18,596 nt of DNA from a bacterium (GTDB lineage: Bacteria > UBP4 > UBA4092 > JAOAEQ01): the NCBI GenBank assembly GCA_026416715.1, contig JAOAEQ010000006.1, forward strand, positions 1-18,596. The letters run 5' to 3'. Shown here in pieces: positions 310 to 18,596 of this stretch. The notes under the pieces are model-generated. The model made no database searches and was not told the DNA's origin. It was given only the letters and a program-made list of their open reading frames with translations. Each line of letters opens with the position of its first letter. Position 1 is the first letter of the stretch. A program made the position numbers and the translations under genes.

Positions 310-2100
310 TTAGTCTTGTTTAACATCAACCGAATCAACATAGATAAATAGGGTCGGTTTCCCTGGGCGATTGATACCAACAATCTGTACCGAATGATAT
401 CCGGTTAACGGTTTATACCCGAATTTCAGTTCACGCCATACTCCTTGTGCCCATTTACCTGGTTGCAGAATCGCGTTCCCGCTTTCGATAATAACACTCC
501 CACTGGTCGTATTGAGACTATAGATGTAGAGATACACTTTCTGGGTATCGTTAATTGTTCCAGCGCCACTATATACCCAGAGCGACCCGATGACATCGTT
601 CGTTCCATGCGGGAAATCAACTGCTTGGGTCAATTTTCCTTTCTGTCCAGCGGATTGATATCCGGATAGTATTCCGGTTCGTCCATCCAGATTGCTTAAC
701 CAGCTCCACGAACCAGCGCCCGGAGTAGGATTCGCATCACCATACGGTTCTACTAACCATCCACTAATGTCGGAAGTAAACCCTGCGTTGGTTAAGGTAA
801 CCGTTCCGGTCGGTTGCGGTGCACCAGCAACGACCCATACTTCATCTAGATATAAATTACTCGTTAATCCGGTTGCTGGCGGATTGATTCCAACCAGCTG
901 GACACTCAATAACGTCGCCGTCGCATAAAACGAGGTTTTTATCTGCCGCCATATTCCAGTACCAGCAAACCCACCTTTCCCCGGCTGAATTATCGTATTG
1001 CTAGTAGCAATAATCGTGGTATCACTCATTAACTCCTGCAGATAGAGATATACTTTCTGCTGTTTGGTCGGGTCAGCGACATCCGTTGCCACTAACGCTG
1101 AAGCGGTATACCAGCCGGAACTCGGTACACTGAATACTTGGGTTAACTTTCCTTTCTGACCCGGGGTCTGGGATAACCGCAGAACACCAGTCTGTCCGGA
1201 ATAATTGTTCTCCCAGGTGAGACTACCTGCACCCGGACCCGGCGGCACCGCATCGCCATACGGTTCGAATAGCCATTGGGTGGTATCGCTAGCCGTGGTA
1301 AACGAACCGTGATGATTTAAATATGGCGGAATGTATATTGCATTCGATATCGCATTGATATTAACCTGTGCTGGAAGATTATTCGCTCGTGCACTAAACA
1401 GCGGCGTGGTATTAAAAACATAACTCGTCGGGTTATAAGCAACTAAATCCGATTTGCTAAACCGAGTACCGCTTCCTGCGGGCAGCAAACTTTCCGCATC
1501 AAATGATAATGCCCATTGCGTGCTAGAAATCCGCATAACTGCATCCAGATTCGCTTGCGCTGGAATACCGCGCGCGAGCGCATCGAAATCTTTCCCGGTA
1601 AACCCGCTGCCAGCAAGATAGTGAACCATATCGCTCTTATGCACTAAACCAACTCCGGGGAGCGTTGCGGATTCCGCAAGCGAAAACGAAAACTCTAACG
1701 GACTTAACGAAATCACATCAACCGCATCGAGATTAACCTGGGCAGGAAGAATGTCTCCATCCCAAATTAACAGGACCGTAGAACCGTTCCATTGGAGTAA
1801 ATCGCGTTTATACAAGAGATTTCCCTGAATGACTGCATCTTCGCCAATCGAAAAAATCAAATTATTCGGCCCATAATATTGCAAAGCATCAATGCTAACA
1901 TTTTTCGGTAAGACAGCGGATAACGATGCAACTAGTGCAGTATAATTTCCTGCGCCGTCCGTAGAAATAACATCATATTTCTGGAACCGATGTGCGCTAA
2001 GTGTGAATCCTTCTTCTGGAGAAAAGATGAACTCGATCGCGATAACCGAACTGCATAACCAGCATAGTCCAATTAAAACAACCCCGATTATTTTATACAT
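310..2100 (-). CDS. exported repeat protein with four ~55-residue repeats and two tandem beta-sandwich-like modules
   Basis: 596 residues. The start ATG is at 2100-2098, with a strong SD (GAAGGGAGGGG) just upstream. Residues 1-21 are a Sec signal peptide (MYKIIGVVLIG...SSVIA). Residues 22-250 hold four repeats of about 50-60 residues. Each follows the pattern 'F-S....LPG.G....K-x-D-[LM]-[VL]..[YW]...[IL]-P-x-x-[VA]-[NS]-[IL]-[DN]-A', ending at about 72, 126, 188 and 252. From memory this resembles the 'LPGVGTVDDSDIV...IDAI' repeats of uncharacterised exported bacterial proteins. Residues 266-425 and 435-596 are a tandem duplication (EPYGDA, PGAGS, GQKGKLTQ, KVYLYL, QPGK, WR, VQxVGIN, DxV) with an all-beta look like a carbohydrate-binding or jelly-roll module. 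No catalytic motif, sortase signal or PEP-CTERM tail is visible. It is probably the first gene of a two-gene minus-strand operon. Function unknown; extracellular or surface location is inferred. Confidence 0.85.
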   Translation of the reverse strand: MYKIIGVVLIGLCWLCSSVIAIEFIFSPEEGFTLSAHRFQKYDVISTDGAGNYTALVASLSAVLPKNVSIDALQYYGPNNLIFSIGEDAVIQGNLLYKRDLLQWNGSTVLLIWDGDILPAQVNLDAVDVISLSPLEFSFSLAESATLPGVGLVHKSDMVHYLAGSGFTGKDFDALARGIPAQANLDAVMRISSTQWALSFDAESLLPAGSGTRFSKSDLVAYNPTSYVFNTTPLFSARANNLPAQVNINAISNAIYIPPYLNHHGSFTTASDTTQWLFEPYGDAVPPGPGAGSLTWENNYSGQTGVLRLSQTPGQKGKLTQVFSVPSSGWYTASALVATDVADPTKQQKVYLYLQELMSDTTIIATSNTIIQPGKGGFAGTGIWRQIKTSFYATATLLSVQLVGINPPATGLTSNLYLDEVWVVAGAPQPTGTVTLTNAGFTSDISGWLVEPYGDANPTPGAGSWSWLSNLDGRTGILSGYQSAGQKGKLTQAVDFPHGTNDVIGSLWVYSGAGTINDTQKVYLYIYSLNTTSGSVIIESGNAILQPGKWAQGVWRELKFGYKPLTGYHSVQIVGINRPGKPTLFIYVDSVDVKQD

Positions 2101-2383
2101 ATATATTTCCCCTCCCTTCTTAACATAATTAGATTAGAACTCAATACCAACATGCGGTAGTGCTCACTAGCTTATCCCGAGTTTAAGTGCGAAGCCACTC
2201 ACCTACCTTGCACCGACTTGTCCCCATCTTGCGATAGGAGAATACGAATACGCTGCATGACTAGAATCGGACTGGATTCTATGCCGTGGTTCTCATGCAA
2301 CATTTTGGTTAGTTAGCGAACAGCGATATTATTTCAACCGGTCTTTTTCGACAAACCCAGATTAAAATCAAGTCTAAATTTAT
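2101..2383 (-). promoter_or_regulatory. long structured 5' leader, candidate cis-regulatory RNA
   Basis: If transcription starts about 7 nt after the -10 at 2390-2395, the 596-residue gene has a leader of about 283 nt. It contains element A (2197-2300) and several pairable segments on the minus strand: GCATGA (complement of 2294-2299) with TCATGC (2255-2260), enclosing TAGAATC/GATTCTA with a 6-nt loop; GTGC with GCAC; and GGTAG with CTACC nearer the gene. A CTCCT (complement of 2236-2240) could pair with the GGGAG of the SD. I could not match it to a riboswitch class I know. Confidence 0.4.
2197..2300 (-). repeat. structured intergenic element, copy A
   Basis: This 104-nt segment aligns with 14103-14206 (also 104 nt) at roughly 69% by hand alignment with a few single-base gaps. 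On the plus strand both copies keep ACTCAC, then CCTTGCAC-x-GACT, CGATAxGG, AATAxGCT, the 13-mer TAGAATCGGACTG and terminal ATGCAA. The segment after TAGAATCGGACTG differs between copies, but each copy can still form a hairpin from it (here TAGAATC/GATTCTA). Orientation is given on the minus strand because this copy sits in a predicted minus-strand leader. It could instead be a MITE/REP-like mobile repeat. Confidence 0.6.
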
Positions 2384-2389
2384 AAACTA

Positions 2390-2418
2390 ATAATAGGTAT
2401 TCTTGGTGATTTTGTCAA
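2390..2418 (-). promoter_or_regulatory. predicted sigma70-type promoter for the exported-protein operon
   Basis: On the minus strand there is a perfect -35 TTGACA (complement of 2413-2418), a 17-nt spacer, and a -10 TATTAT (complement of 2390-2395, 5 of 6 consensus). It points at the 596-residue gene, about 290 bp upstream of its start codon. Confidence 0.7.
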
Positions 2419-2709: not shown

Positions 2710-2809
2710 GTAATGCTTTAAGTATGCTCATTTTCTAGCGGCACCAGCCCAAATCGTGATAAAATTTTATTTGGTAGATATACAGGTGTTTCTGCTAAAA
2801 AACCAACGT

Positions 2810-4231
2810 ATGGCAAGTCTGATGAATAAACACTATTTATTCCCGATTTGTATAATAGTACATTATCTTCTGCTTGCGGGCATGGCGCTGGGGATTCGTC
2901 CGCTAGTAATGAATTCTATTCTTGAAAACTCCCAGGGTCGAAAAACCGTTACGAAATTCGACATAGCTAAACAGCAGGGTAAAGAAGGGCGAATACTATG
3001 GTTCGATGCAACAGCAAACTTGGAAACCTTAAAAACCCGGGAAGGAGTAATTCGGATTCTCGATAAATGTACAACCGTTAAAATTAATACGATTGTGGTT
3101 GATGTTAAACCATTGAGCGGGTGTGTTCTTTACCGTAGCGAAATTGCACCACGATTAACTGAATGGAAAGGGAAACCGTATCCTGCAGATTATGATTTAT
3201 TGCAAACTGTGATTGAAGAAGGACATCGGCGTGGATTGAAAGTCCATGCGGGTTTGAATGTCTTTTGTGAAGGACATAAATTGTTTAAGATTGGACCGGT
3301 ATATGCATCTCATCCTGAATGGCAGAGCACCATCTATACGTCGCAAGGGTTGGTTCCGATAACAGCTAGTCCAGCCGGTTATGCGGCGATGGTCAATCCG
3401 ATACTTCCTGAAGTGCAACAATATGAACTGGATATAATTCAAGAAATCCTGCTGAAGTATGATATTGATGGATTGATACTTGACCGTGTGCGATATAATG
3501 GTATTAACGCTGATTTTTCTGATTTTTCACGCAAGCGATTTGAGCAATATCTCGGGAGAAAACTAACTCGTTGGCCAGAAGATATCTATGTCCTGAATTC
3601 TGATTCCACTCGTACCCCAGGAAAATATTATCGGGATTGGATTTATTGGCGCGCGAAAAATATTTATGAGTTTTTTAAGAAAGTGCGCAGATTGGTTAAC
3701 CGCACTAAACCGTCAATTGCGCTGGGAACCTATGCTGGTTCGTGGTATCCGAGTTATTATGAGGTCGGTGTAAACTGGGCGAGCCAGACATATCAGCCGA
3801 ACGCAGATTGGACAAAAGATTGGATATCGCCACGGTATCGCAAAACCGGATACGCAGAACTACTCGATTATTTCTGTCCCGGCTGTTATTATAAGGAAAT
3901 AACAAAATCGGAATTACTCGCGAAACAAGGACGACCTATAGGCCGCACCGAACCAAGTATGAGTCAAGCGTGGGAACAATGGAATTGTGTTGAGGGAGCC
4001 TGCGAAATGGTTGCAACAGCGGTTAATGATGCGAATTACGTTTACGGCACCATCTATGTTCTGGATTATAAAGGGAATCCAGAGCTGTTCAAACGGGCGG
4101 TCCAGATGTGTCAGCAAAAAACAAATGGCGTTGGTATCTTCGACTTGGTATATATTGAGGAATACGATTGGTGGCATATATTAGCGGAATGTTTTTCGCA
4201 CCCGGCACAAGCTCCGCATGATAATAACTGA
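2810..4231 (+). CDS. exported GHL10-like (glycosyl hydrolase-like family 10) protein
   Basis: About 473 residues from ATG 2810. The frame is open back to a GTG at 2756, and an ATG at 2822 is an equally good alternative (MNKHYLFP then a hydrophobic stretch). No start has a clear SD; I prefer 2810/2822 because a signal-peptide-like segment follows directly. After a ~55-residue lead-in comes a TIM-barrel-like domain with an early strand RILWFDATANLE, IVVDVKPLSG..YRSEIAP, HRRGLKVHAGLNVFCEG, HPEW, MVNPILPEVQQYELDIIQEIL, and the strand YDIDGLILDRVRYNG with a conserved Asp. These are typical of the GHL10/'family 10 glycosylhydrolase' group (YngK-like, related to PF02638). The true substrate of that family is poorly defined; a polysaccharide or peptidoglycan-type glycan is likely. 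It is divergent from the exported-protein pair and separated from it by a regulatory-looking 655-bp gap. Confidence 0.85.
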   Translation: MASLMNKHYLFPICIIVHYLLLAGMALGIRPLVMNSILENSQGRKTVTKFDIAKQQGKEGRILWFDATANLETLKTREGVIRILDKCTTVKINTIVVDVKPLSGCVLYRSEIAPRLTEWKGKPYPADYDLLQTVIEEGHRRGLKVHAGLNVFCEGHKLFKIGPVYASHPEWQSTIYTSQGLVPITASPAGYAAMVNPILPEVQQYELDIIQEILLKYDIDGLILDRVRYNGINADFSDFSRKRFEQYLGRKLTRWPEDIYVLNSDSTRTPGKYYRDWIYWRAKNIYEFFKKVRRLVNRTKPSIALGTYAGSWYPSYYEVGVNWASQTYQPNADWTKDWISPRYRKTGYAELLDYFCPGCYYKEITKSELLAKQGRPIGRTEPSMSQAWEQWNCVEGACEMVATAVNDANYVYGTIYVLDYKGNPELFKRAVQMCQQKTNGVGIFDLVYIEEYDWWHILAECFSHPAQAPHDNN

Positions 4232-4590
4232 TACCTCGAATAAAAGCAAGAAGTACCATCGTTGGCGTATATCCCGAACCTCGCAACAGAGGAGACACCT
4301 TGTGTTTTGATGTTCAACCTTGACCGCTCAAAAATTTGGATTTAAACCTGACGGTTTTTGGTGTTATTTTTCTCTGAATTACGTTCGGGGCTATTCATTC
4401 ATCGGAAACCGAGTTGTCACCACTATCTTTCTAATGCGACTTCGGGTTTTATATAAATTATAGCAGTAGATTATACCCTGCGGGATAAAGTGATCTTGAA
4501 TAAACTTTTCTCACTTGACAATCGTCTAATATTGGGATAAACTTTTACTTTGTAAGAATATCCGCAACAAAGACAAAATCTTATTTTAAT
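4232..4590. other. intergenic region between the GHL10-like gene and the pil motor operon
   Basis: No coding signal is visible in these 359 bp. Near the left side a weak hairpin AAACC-TGAC-GGTTT (4344-4357) followed by Ts could terminate the GHL10-like transcript, but the stem is only 5 bp. At about 4409-4432 an ACCGAGTTGTCACCA-like segment and CCACTATCTTTC resemble parts of elements A and B, too weakly to call a third copy. At the right end are the pilB promoter and a direct repeat ATAAACTTTT (about 4500 and 4537). Confidence 0.4.
4515..4543 (+). promoter_or_regulatory. predicted sigma70-type promoter of the pilB-pilT-pilB-pilC operon
   Basis: A perfect -35 TTGACA (4515-4520), a 17-nt spacer and a -10 TAAACT (4538-4543, 4 of 6) sit about 48 bp upstream of the first pilB start codon. 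This would give a short leader of about 40 nt. Confidence 0.65.
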
Positions 4591-6291
4591 ATGGCAACCA
4601 AACAAGATAGCTTTGTGAAAATATTGGAAGAAGCGCAGCTGGTTTCTTCCGATAAGATTTCCGATGCGGTAGCTCATTCTGAAGAACTTGGGCAATCGTT
4701 ACGGCAGACGTTAATCGAATCCGGTGAGGTTACTGAGGAACAAATCCTTTCTGCGATAGCGGAAAAAATGGGCATGAAAATTGTAGACTTGGATTTTATC
4801 CAGGTTCCACCGGATGTGGTTCAACGCGTGCCGGAAAAAACCGCAAAGTTTTACCATATTTTCCCCATAGAATATGCGGATAATACGCTTACCGTAGCGA
4901 TGGCTGACCCGTTGAATGTCCAGATATTCGATGATTTAAAAATTATGCTCGGCTGTAATATAAAAGGCGTACTAGCGAAAGAAGAGCAGATTCAACGGGC
5001 AATAAAGAAATATTATGAAGGGAATATCATCGAACAGATGATAGAAAAAGTTACGGAAGAAGAGCGGAAATCGGTCGAAATGACGACGGATTATGAATTA
5101 CCAGAAGAGAAACTAGCGGAAGAAGCGCCGGTAGTTAAACTGGTTAACTTATTATTCAAACAAGCGGTACATGATCGCGCATCGGATATCCATATCGAAC
5201 CGTTTGCGCGTGGAGTTAAGGTTCGGTTCCGAATCGATGGCGTTTTGCACGAAATGACGCCGCCACCGAAACAATGGCAGAACGCGATTATCTCCCGAAT
5301 TAAGATTCTTTCCGGAATGGATTTAGCGGAAAAACGAATCCCGCAAGATGGACGGATTAAACTGCATATCGAAGGGAAAAATTTAGATGTGCGTGTTTCT
5401 GCGCTGCCGGCGTTATACGGTCCGAGTATCGTCATGCGTCTCTTAGACCAGAGCACAGTTCTACTTGGGCTAGAAGATGTCGGTTTTTTACCCGATAATA
5501 TCGAAATATTCCAACAACAGATTCGTAAACCGAATGGAATCTTACTGCTAACCGGACCAACAGGTTCCGGAAAAACCACGACCCTTTACGCAGCATTATC
5601 GTCAATTAATACAGTGGATAAAAAGTTAATTACGGTAGAAGACCCGGTTGAATATCAAATTAACGGAATTAACCAGATGCAGGTTAATACTGATATCGGG
5701 TTAACGTTTGCAGTCGGACTGCGACATATGTTGCGGCAATCACCCGATGTTATTCTGGTTGGAGAATGTCGGGATACGGAAACCGCAGAAATTGCGATTC
5801 GCGCTGCGTTAACCGGACATTTAGTATTTAGCACCTTACATACCAACGATGCACCAAGCGCAACTACCCGATTAATTGATATGGGAATTAAACCATTCTT
5901 GGTTGCGTCAAGTTTACAAGCGGTGGTTGCCCAACGGTTAATTCGGAAAATTTGTAACTCGTGTAAAGAACCGTATAAACCGGATGCGGAAACCATAAAA
6001 CTGGTAAATCCGCCACCGGAGCAGCGCGATGATTTAGTATTATATCGTGGTCGTGGCTGTGAAAAATGTAACTATTCCGGATATAAAGGACGGACGGCGA
6101 TTCATGAAATAATGGTATTAAACGAGGAGATTCGACAACTCGTGTTGGAGCGAACAGCATCAAATACGATAAAAAAGGTTGCACAAAAATACGGGATGCG
6201 AACCCTGCGAGAAGATGGTATGAAAAAAGTTCTCCTCGGACAAACAACCCCGCAAGAAGTTATGCGGATTACCGCAACTGATATCGCATAA
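4591..6291 (+). CDS. pilB: PilB/GspE-type pilus assembly ATPase (copy 1)
   Basis: 566 residues, the usual length for this family. Residues 1-150 form a T2SSE_N/MshEN-like domain (LGQSLRQTLIESGEVTEEQ, PLNVQIFDDL). The catalytic domain has an Asp box ASDIHIEPF with FRIDGVLHE, Walker A GPTGSGKTT (about 322-330), VEDPVEYQI, Walker B VILVGECRD (about 387-395) and His box STLHTNDAPSATTRLIDMG. A tetracysteine zinc site lies at C455/C458 and C490/C493 (CNSC...CEKC), typical of PilB/GspE and absent from PilT. The Walker B segment has Cys where Ile or Met is usual (VGECRD); the catalytic Glu is kept. ATP hydrolysis at the inner membrane, with PilC, should drive pilin polymerisation. The start ATG has no clear SD. 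It is the first gene of the motor operon. Confidence 0.93.
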   Translation: MATKQDSFVKILEEAQLVSSDKISDAVAHSEELGQSLRQTLIESGEVTEEQILSAIAEKMGMKIVDLDFIQVPPDVVQRVPEKTAKFYHIFPIEYADNTLTVAMADPLNVQIFDDLKIMLGCNIKGVLAKEEQIQRAIKKYYEGNIIEQMIEKVTEEERKSVEMTTDYELPEEKLAEEAPVVKLVNLLFKQAVHDRASDIHIEPFARGVKVRFRIDGVLHEMTPPPKQWQNAIISRIKILSGMDLAEKRIPQDGRIKLHIEGKNLDVRVSALPALYGPSIVMRLLDQSTVLLGLEDVGFLPDNIEIFQQQIRKPNGILLLTGPTGSGKTTTLYAALSSINTVDKKLITVEDPVEYQINGINQMQVNTDIGLTFAVGLRHMLRQSPDVILVGECRDTETAEIAIRAALTGHLVFSTLHTNDAPSATTRLIDMGIKPFLVASSLQAVVAQRLIRKICNSCKEPYKPDAETIKLVNPPPEQRDDLVLYRGRGCEKCNYSGYKGRTAIHEIMVLNEEIRQLVLERTASNTIKKVAQKYGMRTLREDGMKKVLLGQTTPQEVMRITATDIA

Positions 6292-11076: not shown

Positions 11077-14028
11077 ATGATGAAAGATAAAATTATCATA
11101 AAAGGAGCGCGGGAACATAATCTGAAAAATATTGACCTGGTTCTGCCGCGAAACAAACTGATTGTTATTACCGGCATTTCAGGTTCCGGAAAATCATCGT
11201 TGGCTTTCGATACCATCTATGCGGAAGGACAACGCCGATATGTAGAATCTCTTTCGGCATATGCTCGACAATTTCTTGAACAGATGGATAAACCTGAAGT
11301 TGAGTTTATTGAAGGATTATCTCCGGCAATTAGTATTGAGCAGAAATCGGTTAGTAAGAATCCGCGGTCAACCGTTGGAACTGTAACCGAGATATACGAT
11401 TATCTCCGGTTATTATATGCGCGAATCGGAAAACCCCATTGTCCCTCCTGCGGAAAACCGATATCCCGACAATCTGCTGAACAGATTATTGAAAATATCC
11501 TTTCATTCCCCGCAGAAACAAAATTTATTATTCTTGCGCCATTAATTCGTGGACGCAAAGGAGAATATAAAAAACTATTCGACGATGTTCGTCGGCAGGG
11601 TTTTGTTCGGGTTCGCGTTGATGGGCAGATTCGAGATGTTCATGAATCTATTGACCTTGATAAATTTAAAAAACATGATATTGAAGTGGTAGTTGATCGA
11701 CTCGTTTCTCCTGCGGAGCAACAAACCGAACGCCAACCATCTCAAGGCAAAATGTTAGAGGGTAGATCTTCTGACGTAGGAATGAACTATCGAAAGCGAG
11801 TTGCTGATTCAATCGAGACTGCACTGAAACTCGGGAACGGAATCGTCTATATTCAAATCATCAAGAATGAAAAGGCGAATGAACAAAAAGATGAAACAGT
11901 TTTCTCTCATCCTCTATTGATATATTCTGAACATTTAGCGTGTCTCGATTGTGGAATAAGCTTCCCGGAACTTGAGCCGCGCATGTTTTCTTTCAACAGC
12001 CCACATGGCGCTTGTCCTGCATGTCACGGACTCGGAACCAGCACGAATCTTGACCCCGAACTCATTGTTCCTGACCAGAATAAATCTATCCGTGAAGGAG
12101 CAATTGTTCCGTGGAGTCATATTGCCGCATATTATTCTTCCGGAAACACGGGACTCGGTGGATATTACTATCGTATCCTCGAAGATATCGCACAAGAATA
12201 TAATATTAATCTCAATGCACCGTTTCGAACATTATCTGACCGGGAAAAGAAAATTATTCTCTATGGGAAAGATGGCGATAACTATGTGCGTCATCCGGGG
12301 AAACGATTCTGGGAGAACGAGTTTGAAGGAGTTATCCCGCATCTAGAACGCCGATTTCAAGAAACGGAATCGGAATATATCCGACACGAGATATTCCGAT
12401 TTATGGCAGAACAGCCATGTCCTGTCTGTAAAGGACAACGATTGAAACCGGAAATCCTTGCGGTTAAAATCAGTAACTATTCAATTATGGACCTCTGTTC
12501 TCTTTCAGTTAAATCCGCGTTATCTTTTTTTACGCAGCTTTCCTTACCGGAAAAAGAACAACAGATAGCGGCGCGAATTTTGAAAGAAATTAAGAGCCGG
12601 CTCGGATTTCTCGTAGATGTCGGGTTAGACTATCTTACGCTCAATCGCTCTGCAGCATCGCTTGCTGGCGGTGAAGCGCAGCGAATTCGATTGGCAACAC
12701 AGATCGGCTCACAATTAGTCGGGGTACTCTACATTCTTGACGAACCAAGTATTGGACTGCATCAGCGAGACAATCGGCGACTACTTTCGACCCTATGTTC
12801 ACTTCGTGACCTTGGAAATACAGTTATCGTAGTTGAACATGATGAAGAAACAATTCGAACCGCGGATTGGGTTGTAGATTTAGGACCGGGTGCTGGAAAA
12901 CATGGCGGATATATCGTTGCATCGGGTCCCCCAGAGAAAATTATGCAGACGCGGAATTCGGTTACCGGCAAATATCTTTCGCGTAAATTAAGTGTTCCTA
13001 TTCCCAAAACACGACGTCGCGGGTCAGATAAGTATTTAGAAATTATCGGCGCTCGCGCGAATAATCTGAAAAAGATTAATGTTAAATTTCCGCTTGGAGT
13101 ATTTATCTGTATCACGGGGGTATCTGGTTCTGGAAAAAGTACCTTGCTAAACGATATTCTCTATCGAGCATTAGCGCAACATTTTTATCAAGCACGGGAA
13201 AAACCCGGTTCGTTTGACCGTATACTCGGATTGGAACATATTGATAAAGTAATCAATGTTGACCAATCGCCGATTGGACGAACTCCACGGTCGAATCCTG
13301 CAACTTACGTTGGAGTTTGGTCGGATATCCGAGCTCTTTTTGCCCAAGTACCGGAATCGCGCGTTCGCGGATATAAACCTGGACGATTTAGTTTTAACGT
13401 CAAAGGGGGGCGGTGCGATAATTGTTCTGGTGATGGAATGCTCCAAATCGAGATGCATTTCTTACCGGATGTATATGTTCAATGTGAAGTATGCCGCGGG
13501 AAGCGATTTAATCAAGAAACGTTATCTATTCGGTATAAAGGGAAAAATATTGCTGAAGTGTTAGAGATGACCGTTGAAGATGCGCTAGATTTTTTTGCGA
13601 ATATTCCGGGAATTAAACGGCAGTTGCAAACCTTATTTGACGTTGGGCTTGGGTATATTCAGCTCGGGCAAAGTGCTACGACGCTTTCCGGTGGTGAAGC
13701 GCAACGGGTTAAACTTGCTGCCGAATTAACCAAACGGTCAACAGGGAAAACGGTATATATCCTCGATGAACCGACAACAGGACTCCATTTTGCTGATGTG
13801 CAAAAATTACTCGATGTCTTGAATCGTCTGGTTAATGCAGGTAATACGGTTATGGTAATCGAACATAATCTTGATGTTATCAAGACAGCTGATTATCTGA
13901 TTGACCTCGGTCCAGAGGGAGGTGATGCTGGCGGACAGGTTGTAGCTATCGGCACACCTGAAGAAGTAGCAGCAGTACCGCAATCTTATACCGGCAGATT
14001 CCTAAAACAAATACTTAATCAGAAATAA
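11077..14028 (+). CDS. uvrA: UvrA, excinuclease ABC subunit A
   Basis: 983 residues from ATG 11077; the ATG at 11080 is equally possible. An in-frame GTG at 11023 lies inside the terminator hairpin and encodes no UvrA-like residues. The start [20 protein letters not shown] is canonical. The first ATPase has Walker [10 protein letters not shown], zinc motif CPSCGKP with CLDCG...CPACHG, a [10 protein letters not shown] region, signature [12 protein letters not shown] and Walker [12 protein letters not shown]. The second has [17 protein letters not shown]...[22 protein letters not shown] and [11 protein letters not shown]. The first signature has Ala where Ser is usual. A short low-complexity stretch (about 210-235, [11 protein letters not shown]) explains a length slightly above the usual ~940. 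It recognises DNA damage with UvrB in nucleotide excision repair. No SD or LexA-type operator is seen. It is unrelated in function to the flanking pilus genes. Confidence 0.98.
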
Positions 14029-14102
14029 GCGTTGAATCCAAATTTTGCTATAGAAGTTCTTCGTTTTGTATATACAACTTTGCGCGCGCAGTATTCAGGG
14101 TT

Positions 14103-14206
14103 ACTCACTTCCTTGCACTGACTCGCCACTAACTTTCGATAAGGGAAATAAAAATAAGCTTTTTCAATAGAATCGGACTGTTGTCCATAACTCAGTCCGA
14201 ATGCAA
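14103..14206 (-). repeat. structured intergenic element, copy B
   Basis: Second copy of the 104-nt element at 2197-2300, in the 263-bp gap between convergent uvrA and the pseudopilin operon. It carries a strong hairpin TCGGACTG (14173-14180) / CAGTCCGA (14193-14200), which would be formed on either strand and could act as a bidirectional stop, though no T-run follows. Just outside lies a 12-bp perfect palindrome TTGTATATACAA (14066-14077). Unlike copy A it does not precede a start codon on either strand, which argues for a mobile repeat or a free-standing RNA. Confidence 0.6.
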
Positions 14207-14291
14207 AATAGGAGTTGTTTTAGAATTAACGAATAAACGGGAACTGGCAATAAGAAGCAACCAGTGATTCTAGTTGAAATTTAGCGGTTAA

Positions 14292-15026
14292 CTAATGGTT
14301 TCGTTCATCGCCGTACCAGTTATTAATATCATCGCTATCTTTTCCGCCGCAACTGGTGTTCGCCACCGGGCCTGCAGTAGTTTCTTTTGTAAAACCATTT
14401 TTTCCCATCGAAAATAACTGGTAGGTTAATGGATTTTCATAGGTATCGATACCGTTCGAATTGAACGTTCCGAAATAAGTATTACTAGAGGTGCTTGACA
14501 TCCAATCTTGTGCGGTTGAATAATCAGTATAAACAATATAACTATACGGGTTCTCCCAAGGATCGAGAATAAGTTTTTCATCTGCGGAGAGTCGCATTTT
14601 TTTAATATCCAAGTATGGTCCACGCCATAACGGTGAAGCGGTTGCCGCATTTCCGCTCATACTTACGGTCAACGCTTTTAATAAAACCGCATTACCATAT
14701 CGATATATCGAATCTGCAGAACAGGTTGATGGCGGAAAGTTTCCTAAATCAATCTGATATAAGGTTATGGCTGAACGGAGTGCATCTAAATCAGCTATCG
14801 CTTGCGAATATTTCGCATCCGTGATTTTCCCATTTACTACCATCACTATTGCTAAGGCTAGTATGCTAATTACGAGCAGCACTACTAGCATTTCCACGAC
14901 AGTAAATCCTGATAATTGAACGTGTTTTTTTATCTCGAAATTCCTTTTTGGAGAACTACGTTTCCTTGTGTTAGCTAACATTTTTATTGGTTTTAATAGA
15001 ACAACCCTTGATTGTAATCTCTGCAT
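14292..15026 (-). CDS. GspG-like pseudopilin / type IV pilin-like protein
   Basis: 244 residues from ATG 15026, with an in-frame ATG at 14981 (residue 16) as an alternative. Neither has a good SD. The class III prepilin signal is VQLSG|FTVVEMLVVLLVISILALAIVMV, with Glu at mature position 5. The leader would be 40 residues (or 25 from the second ATG) and very basic, which is long for a pilin. The body has the helix AKYSQAIADLDALRSAITLYQIDLGNFPP, LWRGPYLDIKK, DPWENPYSYIVY, YQLFSMGKNG and the tail DSDDINNWYGDERNH. The order DPWxNPYxY, then FSxGxNG, then D-D-I-x-N-W is that of GspG major pseudopilins, whose C-terminal loop binds calcium. It is the last gene of the minus-strand pseudopilin run and a close paralogue of the next gene. 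Confidence 0.88.
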   Translation of the reverse strand: MQRLQSRVVLLKPIKMLANTRKRSSPKRNFEIKKHVQLSGFTVVEMLVVLLVISILALAIVMVVNGKITDAKYSQAIADLDALRSAITLYQIDLGNFPPSTCSADSIYRYGNAVLLKALTVSMSGNAATASPLWRGPYLDIKKMRLSADEKLILDPWENPYSYIVYTDYSTAQDWMSSTSSNTYFGTFNSNGIDTYENPLTYQLFSMGKNGFTKETTAGPVANTSCGGKDSDDINNWYGDERNH

Positions 15027-15114
15027 AAAAGACCACTCTTTTTATCTGTTCTACCTTTCACCGAATATAACAAATACAGCACGACTTATAACCAATATCA
15101 CCTTGGCAATACAA

Positions 15115-15157
15115 TGAATGGGAGAATGGGAAAAAATTATACCCATTCACCCATTCA
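15115..15157. repeat. perfectly structured hairpin with internally repeated arms between two pseudopilin genes
   Basis: Arms 15115-15130 (TGAATGGGAGAATGGG) and 15142-15157 (CCCATTCACCCATTCA) pair at 15 of 16 positions around an 11-nt AT-only loop. Each arm is a tandem of GAATGGG. It lies in the 184-bp spacer between the two GspG-like genes. On the minus strand no U-run follows, so it is an mRNA stabiliser or partial terminator at best. Confidence 0.55.
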
Positions 15158-15210
15158 TCAATTCAGCTGGTATAGATTTTTTTGCCAGGACGTTGTGCTA
15201 TTGATAAAGA

Positions 15211-15777
15211 CTAATGCCGTTTGCGTTCGTCGCCATACCAATTATTGATATCGTCGGCATCGGTGCCGCGTCTGCCATAAGCACTATCCGCACTTAACGT
15301 TGTATCCGTGCTCCCGTTCATACCCATCGAGAATATTTGATAGGTGTTTGGATTGAAATATCCGCCGGTATCAGGTCCATAAGTCGCTTCTGTTCCCGGC
15401 GCTACGGTATAGTCGGAATATGCAACATAAATATACGGATTATTCCACGGGTCTAAAATATTCCCGTTCGAATCCGTTCGCTCCAGCTTCATATCCAAAT
15501 ACGGTCCTTTCCACAACGGATTCCCGGGCGCTAAACCAACAACTAATGCCTTCCGCATTAAAGCACAGCCGTCAAACGATGGATCTGATGGCGGATACAT
15601 TCCGACATCGCTTTGATATGAGGCGATAGCGGTTTTTATCGCATCGAGGTCGGCTATCGCTTGGGTATACCGTGCTTCGGTAGTTTTAGCGGTGATAACC
15701 GGCAGAATAACTGCTGCTAATATCCCAATAATTAGTAAGACGATAACCAATTCGGCTAAGGTTATACCTTTTTGCAT
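15211..15777 (-). CDS. gspG: GspG-like major pseudopilin
   Basis: 188 residues from ATG 15777. The frame is open to an ATG at 15807, but the strong SD AAGGAGGGG lies between the two and serves 15777, giving the leader MQKG, which is the classic short prepilin leader. The cleavage site is KG|ITLAELVIVLLIIGILAAVILPVI with Glu at +5. The first mature residue is Ile rather than Phe, which is tolerated. The body has ARYTQAIADLDAIKTAIASYQSDVGMYPP, NPLWKGPYLDMKLE, LDPWNNPYIYVAYSDY, YQIFSMGMNGSTD and the tail DADDINNWYGDERKRH, matching GspG order including the putative calcium loop. The C-terminus is nearly identical to that of the downstream paralogue, so a recent duplication is likely. It is inserted in the inner membrane by its N-terminal helix before assembly. 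Confidence 0.9.
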   Translation of the reverse strand: MQKGITLAELVIVLLIIGILAAVILPVITAKTTEARYTQAIADLDAIKTAIASYQSDVGMYPPSDPSFDGCALMRKALVVGLAPGNPLWKGPYLDMKLERTDSNGNILDPWNNPYIYVAYSDYTVAPGTEATYGPDTGGYFNPNTYQIFSMGMNGSTDTTLSADSAYGRRGTDADDINNWYGDERKRH

Positions 15778-15824
15778 ATAAATTATTCCCCTCCTTTCTA
15801 TACACAAAATACTGAAGCTTCGTA

Positions 15825-16541
15825 CTATTTAAACTCATATACCAGGTCATCTCCGGTATTAATCCAACCATCTTTGCCCGTACAAACGATAGCAAATTGT
15901 TCTATGGTGGCAACACTATAACTAAGGATAATCTGAACCCCGCGATAATCAAATTCACGATGATTTTGTTTTGTCACACTATATGCCACAAGCCGATATG
16001 TTCCACCCCAAGGATCTATCGGCATTCCTCCTGTGGATAAATCGTAGAGTGGAACCTGTCGCTGATAATTCACAAACGGACCCTTCCATTTCTGTGCATC
16101 TCCTTTTAACATATCTCGAATTCGTCTTACTGGACTAGCATACTCGGGCTCCTGTCCACTTAATGCAGTTGTATCAGATGCAATGACATAATACCCACCA
16201 CCATCGTTAAATGGCCGGTTCCCAATACAATCCGGATCGTTAACCGCCGGATAATCCGATTGATATCCCGGCACATCATTTAATACACTCAATGGAACAA
16301 AATAACCATAGTACATTTCAACCATTTTTTCCGCTTCAGCTATTTGCCGCATTTCGGCATACGCCGCGGTTTTTTTCGCTTCATCTCGTTTTCCCTGATA
16401 TACCGAAAACGCAATAACGGTAATGATTCCAACCACGACGACTGTCGCTAGTACTTCAATAAACGTAAACCCATACTTACCATATAATGTTATATTGTTA
16501 ACAAATCTGTGGAATCGGATTTTTTTAATCTGTGTAATCAT
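15825..16541 (-). CDS. GspG-related pseudopilin with repeat-derived leader
   Basis: 238 residues from ATG 16541, the only in-frame start codon before the prepilin site. The signal is GKYG|FTFIEVLATVVVVGIITVIAFSVY. The helix region DEAKKTAAYAEMRQIAEAEKMVEMYYGYFVPLSVLNDVPGY resembles the next upstream gene. Then come WKGPFVNYQR, IDPWGGTYRLVAYS, an IEQFAIVCTGKDG block and the tail NTGDDLVYEFK. The first 13 codons are a dispersed-repeat sequence (ATGATTACACAG...). The upstream gene's stop is only 6 nt before this ATG and there is no SD, so expression probably depends on translational coupling. It is a pilin-like fibre or minor subunit by inference; the exact role is unknown. Confidence 0.85.
   Translation of the reverse strand: MITQIKKIRFHRFVNNITLYGKYGFTFIEVLATVVVVGIITVIAFSVYQGKRDEAKKTAAYAEMRQIAEAEKMVEMYYGYFVPLSVLNDVPGYQSDYPAVNDPDCIGNRPFNDGGGYYVIASDTTALSGQEPEYASPVRRIRDMLKGDAQKWKGPFVNYQRQVPLYDLSTGGMPIDPWGGTYRLVAYSVTKQNHREFDYRGVQIILSYSVATIEQFAIVCTGKDGWINTGDDLVYEFK
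16504..16539 (-). repeat. GATTACACAGATT-type dispersed repeat overlapping a pseudopilin start
   Basis: On the minus strand GATTACACAGATT (complement of 16527-16539) is followed by GATTCCACAGATT (complement of 16504-16516). This is the same unit and a similar period (23 bp) as in the pilB-pilC spacer. The pseudopilin ATG (16541-16539) overlaps the first base of the repeat, and the repeat encodes its residues from Ile2 to about Phe13. A decayed relative may lie at 17924-17949. Confidence 0.6.
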
Positions 16542-16547
16542 ATATTT

Positions 16548-17243
16548 TTAGAAATAGACGATAATATCATCACCAAGATATCCGGTTAACGGATTAAAAT
16601 CTAACGTTGTATTTTTTCCATAACTCAAAATAGCGAACCGATCTAAAGCACCGGTTAACGGCGGGTCTACCTCTTTTACTCCATAATTGAATGGGTATCG
16701 ATTATCCCGAGCGACATTATCAGGACCAAATAAACGATATGGACTCCCCCAAGGGTCAAGGGGAATACCATATTTTGTTTCCGACAGTGGCATGGTTTCT
16801 TCAGGAGTATTATCATTGGTATATACCCCTAGCAGATTCGATTTCGGTCCTTTCTGTTTAAACTGGATATAAGGACCTTGCCATTCACCAGCTAAATTCG
16901 CATTCGTTTTCGTTAACGAATACGCTCCTGACGTTTCGATTGCATAACCATATTCATATTCTATTGCATATTCAATCCATCCCATCGTATTATTTGACGG
17001 TATCGTGCTATGAACATCATTTAATACACGTAAACTCACATAATAACCGGTATCCAGTTCAACCGCTTGTTCTGCTTTAACCAGTTGCATCATTTCTGAC
17101 CGAGCGGTGGCATATTTTGCTTCATCTGACCGCTGGGTATATCGCGATACAGCTACCGCTACCAGAACGCCTACTATAATAACGGCTATTAAAACTTCTA
17201 AAATCGTAAATCCTTTCTGCTGATATTTTGGATATATCATCAT
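16548..17243 (-). CDS. GspG-related pseudopilin
   Basis: 231 residues. ATG 17243 has a GGAGG SD 8 nt upstream; a second ATG follows directly. The leader MMIYPKYQQKG precedes FTILEVLIAVIIVGVLVAVAVSRY, with Glu at +5. The helix region RSDEAKYATARSEMMQLVKAEQAVELDTGYYVSLRVLNDV aligns with the neighbouring paralogues. The globular part has WQGPYIQFKQ, a Thr/Glu-rich loop, IPLDPWGSPYRLFGPDN, DRFAILSYGKNTTLD and the tail GYLGDDIIVYF. A variable loop between the W-x-G-P-Y and DPWG motifs is longer than in the other paralogues. It is 55 bp from the next gene upstream and 6 bp from the gene downstream, so clearly in an operon. Confidence 0.88.
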   Translation of the reverse strand: MMIYPKYQQKGFTILEVLIAVIIVGVLVAVAVSRYTQRSDEAKYATARSEMMQLVKAEQAVELDTGYYVSLRVLNDVHSTIPSNNTMGWIEYAIEYEYGYAIETSGAYSLTKTNANLAGEWQGPYIQFKQKGPKSNLLGVYTNDNTPEETMPLSETKYGIPLDPWGSPYRLFGPDNVARDNRYPFNYGVKEVDPPLTGALDRFAILSYGKNTTLDFNPLTGYLGDDIIVYF

Positions 17244-17297
17244 ACAAGAAGCCTCCGTTTTTATTCACGTAACTCACGTATTCAATTTATTCGGATT

Positions 17298-17897
17298 TTA
17301 AAATTTCAACATAATATCATCGCCGACCGGCGGTCCCCACGGTGCCGTGGAATCACTTTCAAAAACATAATTCGGTCCGCTACTCCAAATCACTCCGGCG
17401 GGTATATTATATGCAGTGTCTTGCGAACCATAAACACGATAGGGTTTCCCCCATGGGTCAAGCGGCAAATTCAGAGTCGTATCAAACTTCTGATATTGCA
17501 AATATGGTCCTTTCCATGCATCGCCAACGTTCGCTAGCACCGGTTGCATCGGGTCACCGTTAACAAAATAGCCGGTAGAATAATTTGACCATTGTCCAGC
17601 AGCTAACCAAGTATCATAACTCCAAACAGTTACCGTTGCGTATGGCGATTGGGGAACCTGCATTAAATTACTCGGAAAAACGAAATAGCCAGTTTCCGCA
17701 TACGCTAGCGATTCTGCTTTTCCAATCTGCTGCATTTCATCGCGAGCAGCGGTAATTTTTGTTTCTTCGGTTTTTTTCCAATAAATAGGAATTGCTATCA
17801 GCGCTAAAATCGCAACTATCGCTACGACGGTCACAATCTCAGCGGCAGTGAACCCATACCGATTGTGATTATTATTAAATTTGGTCATGAACCCCAT
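17298..17897 (-). CDS. GspG-related pseudopilin
   Basis: 199 residues. ATG 17897 has a GAGGGAG SD upstream; ATG 17888 is a less likely alternative. The leader MGFMTKFNNNHNRYG precedes FTAAEIVTVVAIVAILALIAIPIYW, with Glu at +5. The helix KKTEETKITAARDEMQQIGKAESLAYAETGYFVFPSNL is followed by AWKGPYLQYQK, LPLDPWGKPYRVYGSQD, a short VIWSSGPN segment and the tail GPPVGDDIMLKF. It is the shortest complete member of the minus-strand array after the gspG-like gene. An 85-bp spacer separates it from the partial gene upstream; that spacer holds a short palindrome TTTCTATAATAGAAA (about 17960-17974) and a decayed GATTACA repeat. Confidence 0.87.
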   Translation of the reverse strand: MGFMTKFNNNHNRYGFTAAEIVTVVAIVAILALIAIPIYWKKTEETKITAARDEMQQIGKAESLAYAETGYFVFPSNLMQVPQSPYATVTVWSYDTWLAAGQWSNYSTGYFVNGDPMQPVLANVGDAWKGPYLQYQKFDTTLNLPLDPWGKPYRVYGSQDTAYNIPAGVIWSSGPNYVFESDSTAPWGPPVGDDIMLKF

Positions 17898-17982
17898 AAA
17901 CGATTTTCTCCCTCTTTTTAAGCGATTACAGTGATTAAACCATAGATTTTACCTTTATTGTTTCTATAATAGAAAAGTCGAG

Positions 17983-18596
17983 TTAAAATAAATAAATTAA
18001 ATCGTCTACACGTCGTTTCGCCGGACTCTGCCGATAATATGGGCTTCCTACCGTAGTAATATCTGATAACGTTAATTGTTTAAATCGATACGTTTGTCCA
18101 GCTTCTTCAATAACATATTCTGGCCAACCGTTTGGTCCGTTACTAATTATCATTGCTGTTGTCGGAATATCAGTAGGATTGATAATAAACAGTCCTGTTG
18201 AATTGACTGTATAGGACGAAGTAGAGTCGCTTTTAAGTAAAACAAGGCGATATGGGTTCCCCCAACTATCACACGGGTCACCTTTTTTAAAAACCGGTAG
18301 AATCTGCCATGCTGTAATCGGATGTTCATTGCCCCAAGCATCAACGACTATATCACCCTCAAACAATTTCTTCTCCGCAACCTGCGGCGAAAGATATGGA
18401 CCGTGCCAGGCTGTAGAACTAATTGTTATACCTAAGCGAGGGTCAGCTAACGGAACTCCGCCGCCGAGAAAATCAGCATAGACATCTTTTGCTGGCAATT
18501 CAGGTGAAGCAAGGTCGCTAAACCTCCAGAATACACCTGTATCATTATGCGCCCACGTCTCAGCGGTAGCTAATAACCGCATTTCTTCATACGCAG
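17983..18596 (-). CDS. pseudopilin-like protein, C-terminal part (5' end beyond the window)
   Basis: The frame is open through the right edge. An ATG at 18582 is internal, because the codons upstream (AYEE) continue the helix pattern of the paralogues (AYEEMRLLATAETWAHNDTGVFW, compare AYAEMRQIAEAEK). The visible ~203 residues have AWHGPYLSPQ, then two D-x-W-G-N motifs (VVDAWGNEHPI and CDSWGNPYRLVLL) where the others have one, an IISNGPNGWPEYV block and the tail RRVDDLIYLF. The prepilin signal itself lies outside the window, so pilin-like identity rests on alignment with the four neighbours. It is the first visible gene of the minus-strand array. Confidence 0.75.
   Translation of the reverse strand, partial: AYEEMRLLATAETWAHNDTGVFWRFSDLASPELPAKDVYADFLGGGVPLADPRLGITISSTAWHGPYLSPQVAEKKLFEGDIVVDAWGNEHPITAWQILPVFKKGDPCDSWGNPYRLVLLKSDSTSSYTVNSTGLFIINPTDIPTTAMIISNGPNGWPEYVIEEAGQTYRFKQLTLSDITTVGSPYYRQSPAKRRVDDLIYLF

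Follow-up and report, generated by a model that had tools for sequence, protein, structure and literature searches.

A repeat upstream of an exported-protein gene is most likely relic mobile DNA rather than a new gene-control RNA

The bacterial DNA analysed here, a stretch of 18,596 nt (hereinafter, the window), contains a segment that recurs within it and that, in one copy, has a promoter-like site on one side and the start of an exported-protein gene on the other. Does this segment represent a regulatory RNA of a new class, or a mobile repeat? A preliminary description of the window entertained both readings. Our analysis indicates that the segment is, with high probability, part of an old, non-autonomous MITE-like element of ~235 bp, with ~30 recognisable, mostly decayed copies in the genome, and that the repeat is most likely relic mobile DNA, not a new gene-control RNA.

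Extent, anatomy and distribution of the repeat family

The segments at 2197-2300 and 14103-14206, belonging to copies A and B, respectively, had been described as related, and they are: with copy A as a BLAST query against the genome, the two copies align with 75% identity over 78 bp (E 3.9e-6), and their local alignment score of 55 compares with a best score of 37 among 200 dinucleotide shuffles of copy A. The identity of about 69% quoted originally is not reached in an ungapped comparison of the two 104-nt stretches, where 56 of the 104 positions agree (54%), and thus requires that small indels be allowed. The same BLAST search returned further matches to copy A on contigs 1 and 8, and the similarity among the first copies aligned reaches well beyond the 104-nt segment. 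The unit is not 104 nt long but ~235 bp, of which both segments are arbitrary parts, and instead of being present twice, it has a third copy in the window and ~30 copies genome-wide, 29 of these scoring E<1e-3 when the 2.96-Mb genome is searched with a sequence-only model. Within the window, the model hits span 2149-2307 (A), 14043-14212 (B) and 4301-4470 (the third copy). The corresponding features of the window are the following:

2149..2308, plus strand: copy A, model positions 71-228, the right-hand two thirds of the element; left terminal repeat missing
2197..2300, plus strand: segment described earlier, an arbitrary part of copy A
2292..2308, plus strand: right terminal inverted repeat of copy A, CTCATGCAACATTTTGG, 3 mismatches to the consensus
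4301..4470, plus strand: copy 3, missed in the earlier description, a weakly matching internal part (model positions 19-186; 23.6 bits and E 4e-7 when the window is searched)
14037..14214, plus strand: copy B, both ends present, ~55 nt deleted internally
14037..14053, plus strand: left terminal inverted repeat of copy B, TCCAAATTTTGCTATAG, 2 mismatches
14103..14206, plus strand: second segment described earlier, an arbitrary part of copy B
14198..14214, plus strand: right terminal inverted repeat of copy B, CGAATGCAAAATAGGAG, 4 mismatches

Copy 3, with the core TTCGGGGCTATTCA at 4384-4397, falls into the stretch that separates the ORFs 2756-4231 and 4591-6291. Copy B lies, as noted previously, between convergent genes, namely, uvrA (plus strand, ending at 14028) and a pseudopilin-like gene (14292-15026, minus strand). 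The latter is one of five or six pseudopilin-like genes that follow one another on the minus strand (14292-18582); this row adjoins plus-strand pilB/pilT/pilC-like genes and uvrA, all named by eye from their translations.

The complete element of ~235 bp is bounded by 17-bp terminal inverted repeats and encloses four palindromes, H1-H4. The order of its parts in the consensus, read by eye from the copies, is as follows:

CCCAAATTTTGCAATAG: first terminal inverted repeat
GGGGTTAAAACCCC: H1
CCCCGAGCTTAAGCTCGGGG: H2, then CTATTCA
TGAACTGACTAG, then CCCCTATCTTTAGATAGGGG: H3
TAGAATCGGACTTTAGTCC: H4
CTAATGCAAAATTTGGG: second terminal inverted repeat

Terminal repeats with no more than 4 mismatches are found at both ends of six elements (L062, L063, L064, L066, L078 and L107). 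Perfect 5-bp duplications flank two of these, L066 (ATTAA/ATTAA) and L107 (TTTAT/TTTAT), the second being a single-copy relative of the family; the flanks of L078 (TTAAA/TTAAT) match in 4 of 5 positions, and those of the other both-ended elements in fewer, with the right flank of L062, CTTAA, also occurring to the left of ATTTTGC if the left end of this element is partly missing. When left flanks were paired with the right flanks of other copies, permutation yielded p=0.011 for total matches and p=0.067 for the number of pairs in which 4 or more of the 5 positions agree, so that a 5-bp target-site duplication is likely, if not strongly proven. The flanking 5-mers are 82-88% A+T. The 228-bp relative L107 (C1:84270-84497) shares the 17-bp ends of the family (0 and 3 mismatches), with a different interior that contains other palindromes; this suggests that the mobilised unit is defined by the ends.

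The repeat family is old, given a median pairwise identity among copies of 59%, and many copies lack sequence at one side or the other, or carry an internal deletion. All 30 copies examined are intergenic, with none overlapping a predicted gene (ORFs were called by codon usage); the neighbouring genes are arranged as ++ in 11 cases, -- in 9, convergent in 6 and divergent in 3. The copies occur in both orientations, facing 26 gene starts and 32 gene ends, and these 30 show no preference for gene starts. In the only other genome of the class, no copy was detected at E<0.05 (nothing scored below E 0.09) and no orthologues were found; a DNA query against 40 other genomes produced short, chance-like matches only, and plasmid and phage collections contained no match to the repeat. 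The 12-mer TAGAATCGGACT, with at most one mismatch, occurs 29 times, compared with 4 for the reversed control, some of these occurrences only being copies of the repeat; locus L047, which contains it with one mismatch, was considered as a family member and judged unrelated.

Mobilisation by the ends or by the internal palindromes

The terminal inverted repeats, the duplications around the best copies, the exclusively intergenic sites and the copy number all bear out the mobile-repeat reading of the preliminary description. The family resembles bacterial MITEs such as Correia, RUP, ERIC and BrickBuilt (PMC10969869) in being short, non-coding, intergenic and interspersed, with terminal inverted repeats, internal stem-loops and short target duplications that fade with age, but differs from them in sequence, in the strong decay of its copies and in that no parental insertion sequence was identified. 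The 17-bp ends most likely served as recognition sites for a transposase supplied in trans, and the termini and flanks suggest that the element would have been inserted at AT-rich intergenic sites, with duplication of 5 bp; the copies would later have diverged, losing ends or internal parts, and presumably lack a present function.

The main gap in this account is the enzyme. The genome, rated 100% complete, yielded no match to Y1_Tnp (PF01797) at E<=0.01, in a search that produced matches in 6 of 14 control genomes, and no match to DDE_Tnp_1; accordingly, the partner was probably lost or came from a family other than these two. Neither an autonomous element nor a transposase was seen near the terminal-repeat matches. 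One such match, C2:1209, close to a contig end, was considered as a cut-off autonomous element; by eye, the nearby frame is not transposase-like, and the stretch resembles a decayed copy.

Alternatively, the palindromes themselves could have been the mobile unit, with an inverted hairpin pair (H2 plus CTATTCA, and TGAACTGACTAG plus H3) moved by a single-strand (Y1) transposase in the manner of REP/REPIN elements and the terminal repeats being secondary. We consider this scenario improbable. It draws on genuine likenesses to REP/BIME/REPIN sequences and their RAYT partners (PMC3733652, PMC3116915), namely, chained short palindromes, a conserved unpaired tag beside the stem and an inverted dimer: indeed, H2 and H3 stand opposite one another, their TGAATAG/TGACTAG tags inverted, in an arrangement reminiscent of a tail-to-tail REP dimer; diverged copies retain part of the pairing; and the same tag accompanies hairpins with other stems in contigs of KSB1, Calditrichaceae and Neomarinimicrobiota. 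The known REP super-families, however, are defined by the tags GTAG and CGTC (PMC3733652), whereas the tag here is TGAATAG/TGACTAG, and the genome contains no RAYT; because the tag differs and the Y1 transposase is missing, the family cannot be assigned to REP/REPIN. Furthermore, there are 17-bp terminal repeats and ~30 copies rather than hundreds, and within its own genome, the H2 core occurs almost exclusively inside copies of the larger element. Taken together, the terminal repeats, the duplications around the best copies and the sharing of ends only by L107 favour a MITE moved in trans.

Copy A, folding and the regulatory-RNA reading

Copy A occupies the position ascribed to it in the preliminary description: it separates a promoter-like site from the start of the gene for the exported protein (310-2100, minus strand). 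It is located in the presumed 280-nt 5' leader, antisense relative to the direction used here for writing the family, and its missing left third is the side next to the gene start at 2100. The site reported earlier as a near-consensus promoter is present as well:

2390..2418, minus strand: promoter-like site, TTGACA-17-TATTAT, 11 of 12 matches, outside the element

Three promoter-like sites were found in the same stretch compared with 2.6 expected in shuffles, so that the site is weak evidence for a promoter. No terminator-like site was found in the leader. The leader placement of copy A is one among many, with no pattern.

MITEs in other bacteria can influence expression from such leader positions (reviewed in PMC10969869), and copy A alone might have been co-opted likewise, an inert repeat now affecting the expression of the exported protein through hairpins or mRNA stability in the leader. 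Such co-option would be compatible with the MITE origin of the family and is encouraged by the location of copy A, but with no terminator-like site in the leader and a fold that is only mildly stable, we regard it as quite unlikely.

The hairpins previously pointed out in copies A (TAGAATC/GATTCTA) and B (TCGGACTG/CAGTCCGA) both exist but pair different positions of the element. At these positions, other copies carry GGACTTTAGTCC or GGACTTTCGTCC, so that neither hairpin is likely to be ancestral; the two are not one conserved structure. Folding energies do not stand out on the plus strand (z 0.64 for A, -0.31 for B) and are only mildly lowered on the minus strand (z -1.85 for A, -1.67 for B), and RNAalifold applied to the first seven copies recovered 5 pairs, with zero compensatory pairs. 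By pair counting over 35 rows, pairing in H1-H3 amounts to 74.8%, compared with 72.0% in shuffles, and the covariation score of these hairpins, computed from paralogous copies, is 0.120 compared with 0.098 in shuffles (0/500 shuffles). Pairing and compensatory change somewhat above the shuffled level indicate that the hairpin structure mattered at some stage; given that the copies are paralogues of a once-active element, this covariation fits a role of the palindromes in the spread of the element equally well as a role in RNA.

The proposal of a candidate regulatory RNA, that is, a conserved structured RNA (a riboswitch-like leader or a small RNA) of which A and B would be two copies, can invoke the location of copy A, flanked by a promoter-like site and a gene start, the slightly greater stability of the minus-strand folds relative to shuffles and some compensatory changes, but is highly improbable given the absence of a gene-start preference, the occurrence of copies in both orientations, the many fragments and internal deletions, the class relative without copies, the non-homologous hairpins of A and B, and the outcome of the comparison with Rfam suggested earlier, which gave no match at the gathering cut-off for the window and none at E<=1 for the loci of eight copies. 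The genomic distribution already largely refutes a riboswitch-like reading. The preliminary description had proposed that scatter without regard to gene starts, combined with target duplications or proximity to a transposase, would identify a MITE/REP; the scatter and, in the best copies, the duplications are observed, whereas no transposase is seen near the terminal-repeat matches. By this measure, the scatter and the duplications make the element a MITE/REP and not a riboswitch. One candidate new regulatory RNA class is thus struck off the list, and the case illustrates how a decayed MITE can mimic an RNA class when two copies alone are seen in a short window.

Tagged palindromes in other phyla

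Across the genome collection, exact matches to the core CCCGAGYTNAARCTCGGGGCTATTCA were recovered from 15 stretches, which belong to Calditrichaceae, KSB1, Bacteroidota (Prolixibacteraceae and others), Neomarinimicrobiota and Cloacimonadota, and the AATAG tag adjoins hairpins with different stems at loci of KSB1, Calditrichaceae and Neomarinimicrobiota. In KSB1, 5 of 28 non-query hairpins carry this tag, compared with a random expectation of ~1.4%; these counts are small, come from contigs picked by the pattern and include hairpins that are non-independent within one genome, and should be taken as a lead only. In the Calditrichaceae genome CSMAG_2922, a repeat (L122, L127, L132-L134 and L136) is likewise built of terminal repeats around palindromes that include the core CCCGAGCTGAAGCTCGGGGCTATTCA, but has its own unrelated terminal repeats (CCCGATTAACAGGCTGTTGCAGA ... 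CTCTGTAACAGCCTGTTAATCGGG in L132) and different other palindromes. We tentatively raise the possibility, which we consider doubtful, that the palindromes inside the element are members of a so far undescribed super-family, spanning several phyla, of TGAATAG-tagged hairpins with variable stems, a conserved tag and a conserved GGGGCTATTCA linker; such hairpins would be housed in repeats with unrelated ends in Calditrichota, KSB1, Neomarinimicrobiota, Bacteroidota, Cloacimonadota and the present lineage and would perhaps serve their own spread or maintenance. If confirmed with controls, this would be a repeat type outside the GTAG and CGTC super-families.

Several further palindromes were encountered in the course of this analysis. 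Three copies of the CSMAG_2922 repeat contain extra palindrome-rich stretches (TCCCACAGGGATCCC...) in hairpin loops that are bare elsewhere, and look as if palindromes had been inserted into the loops of palindromes. A different palindrome, of 18 nt, has been described in Caldithrix abyssi (PMC5317091). In the KSB1 genome S140_5 (L123, L125, L126 and L128), short palindromes (GGGCTGAAGCCC, CCCCGGCTTTCAAGCCGGGG) with AATAG tags are packed into dense arrays. In the genome under study, a copy of the palindromes lies directly behind an apparent tRNA 3' end and is followed by a longer, perfect palindrome, GCTGACTAGCCCCTAGCTTTAGCTAGGGGCTAGTCAGC (L084, C5:122110-122215), and the 12-mer search uncovered near-perfect intergenic palindromes of the type TAGAATCGGAATTGAACGATTCAATTCCGATTCTA (L048/L049, C15:25273-25307; L051/L052, C19:48788-48822), which form a separate small repeat.
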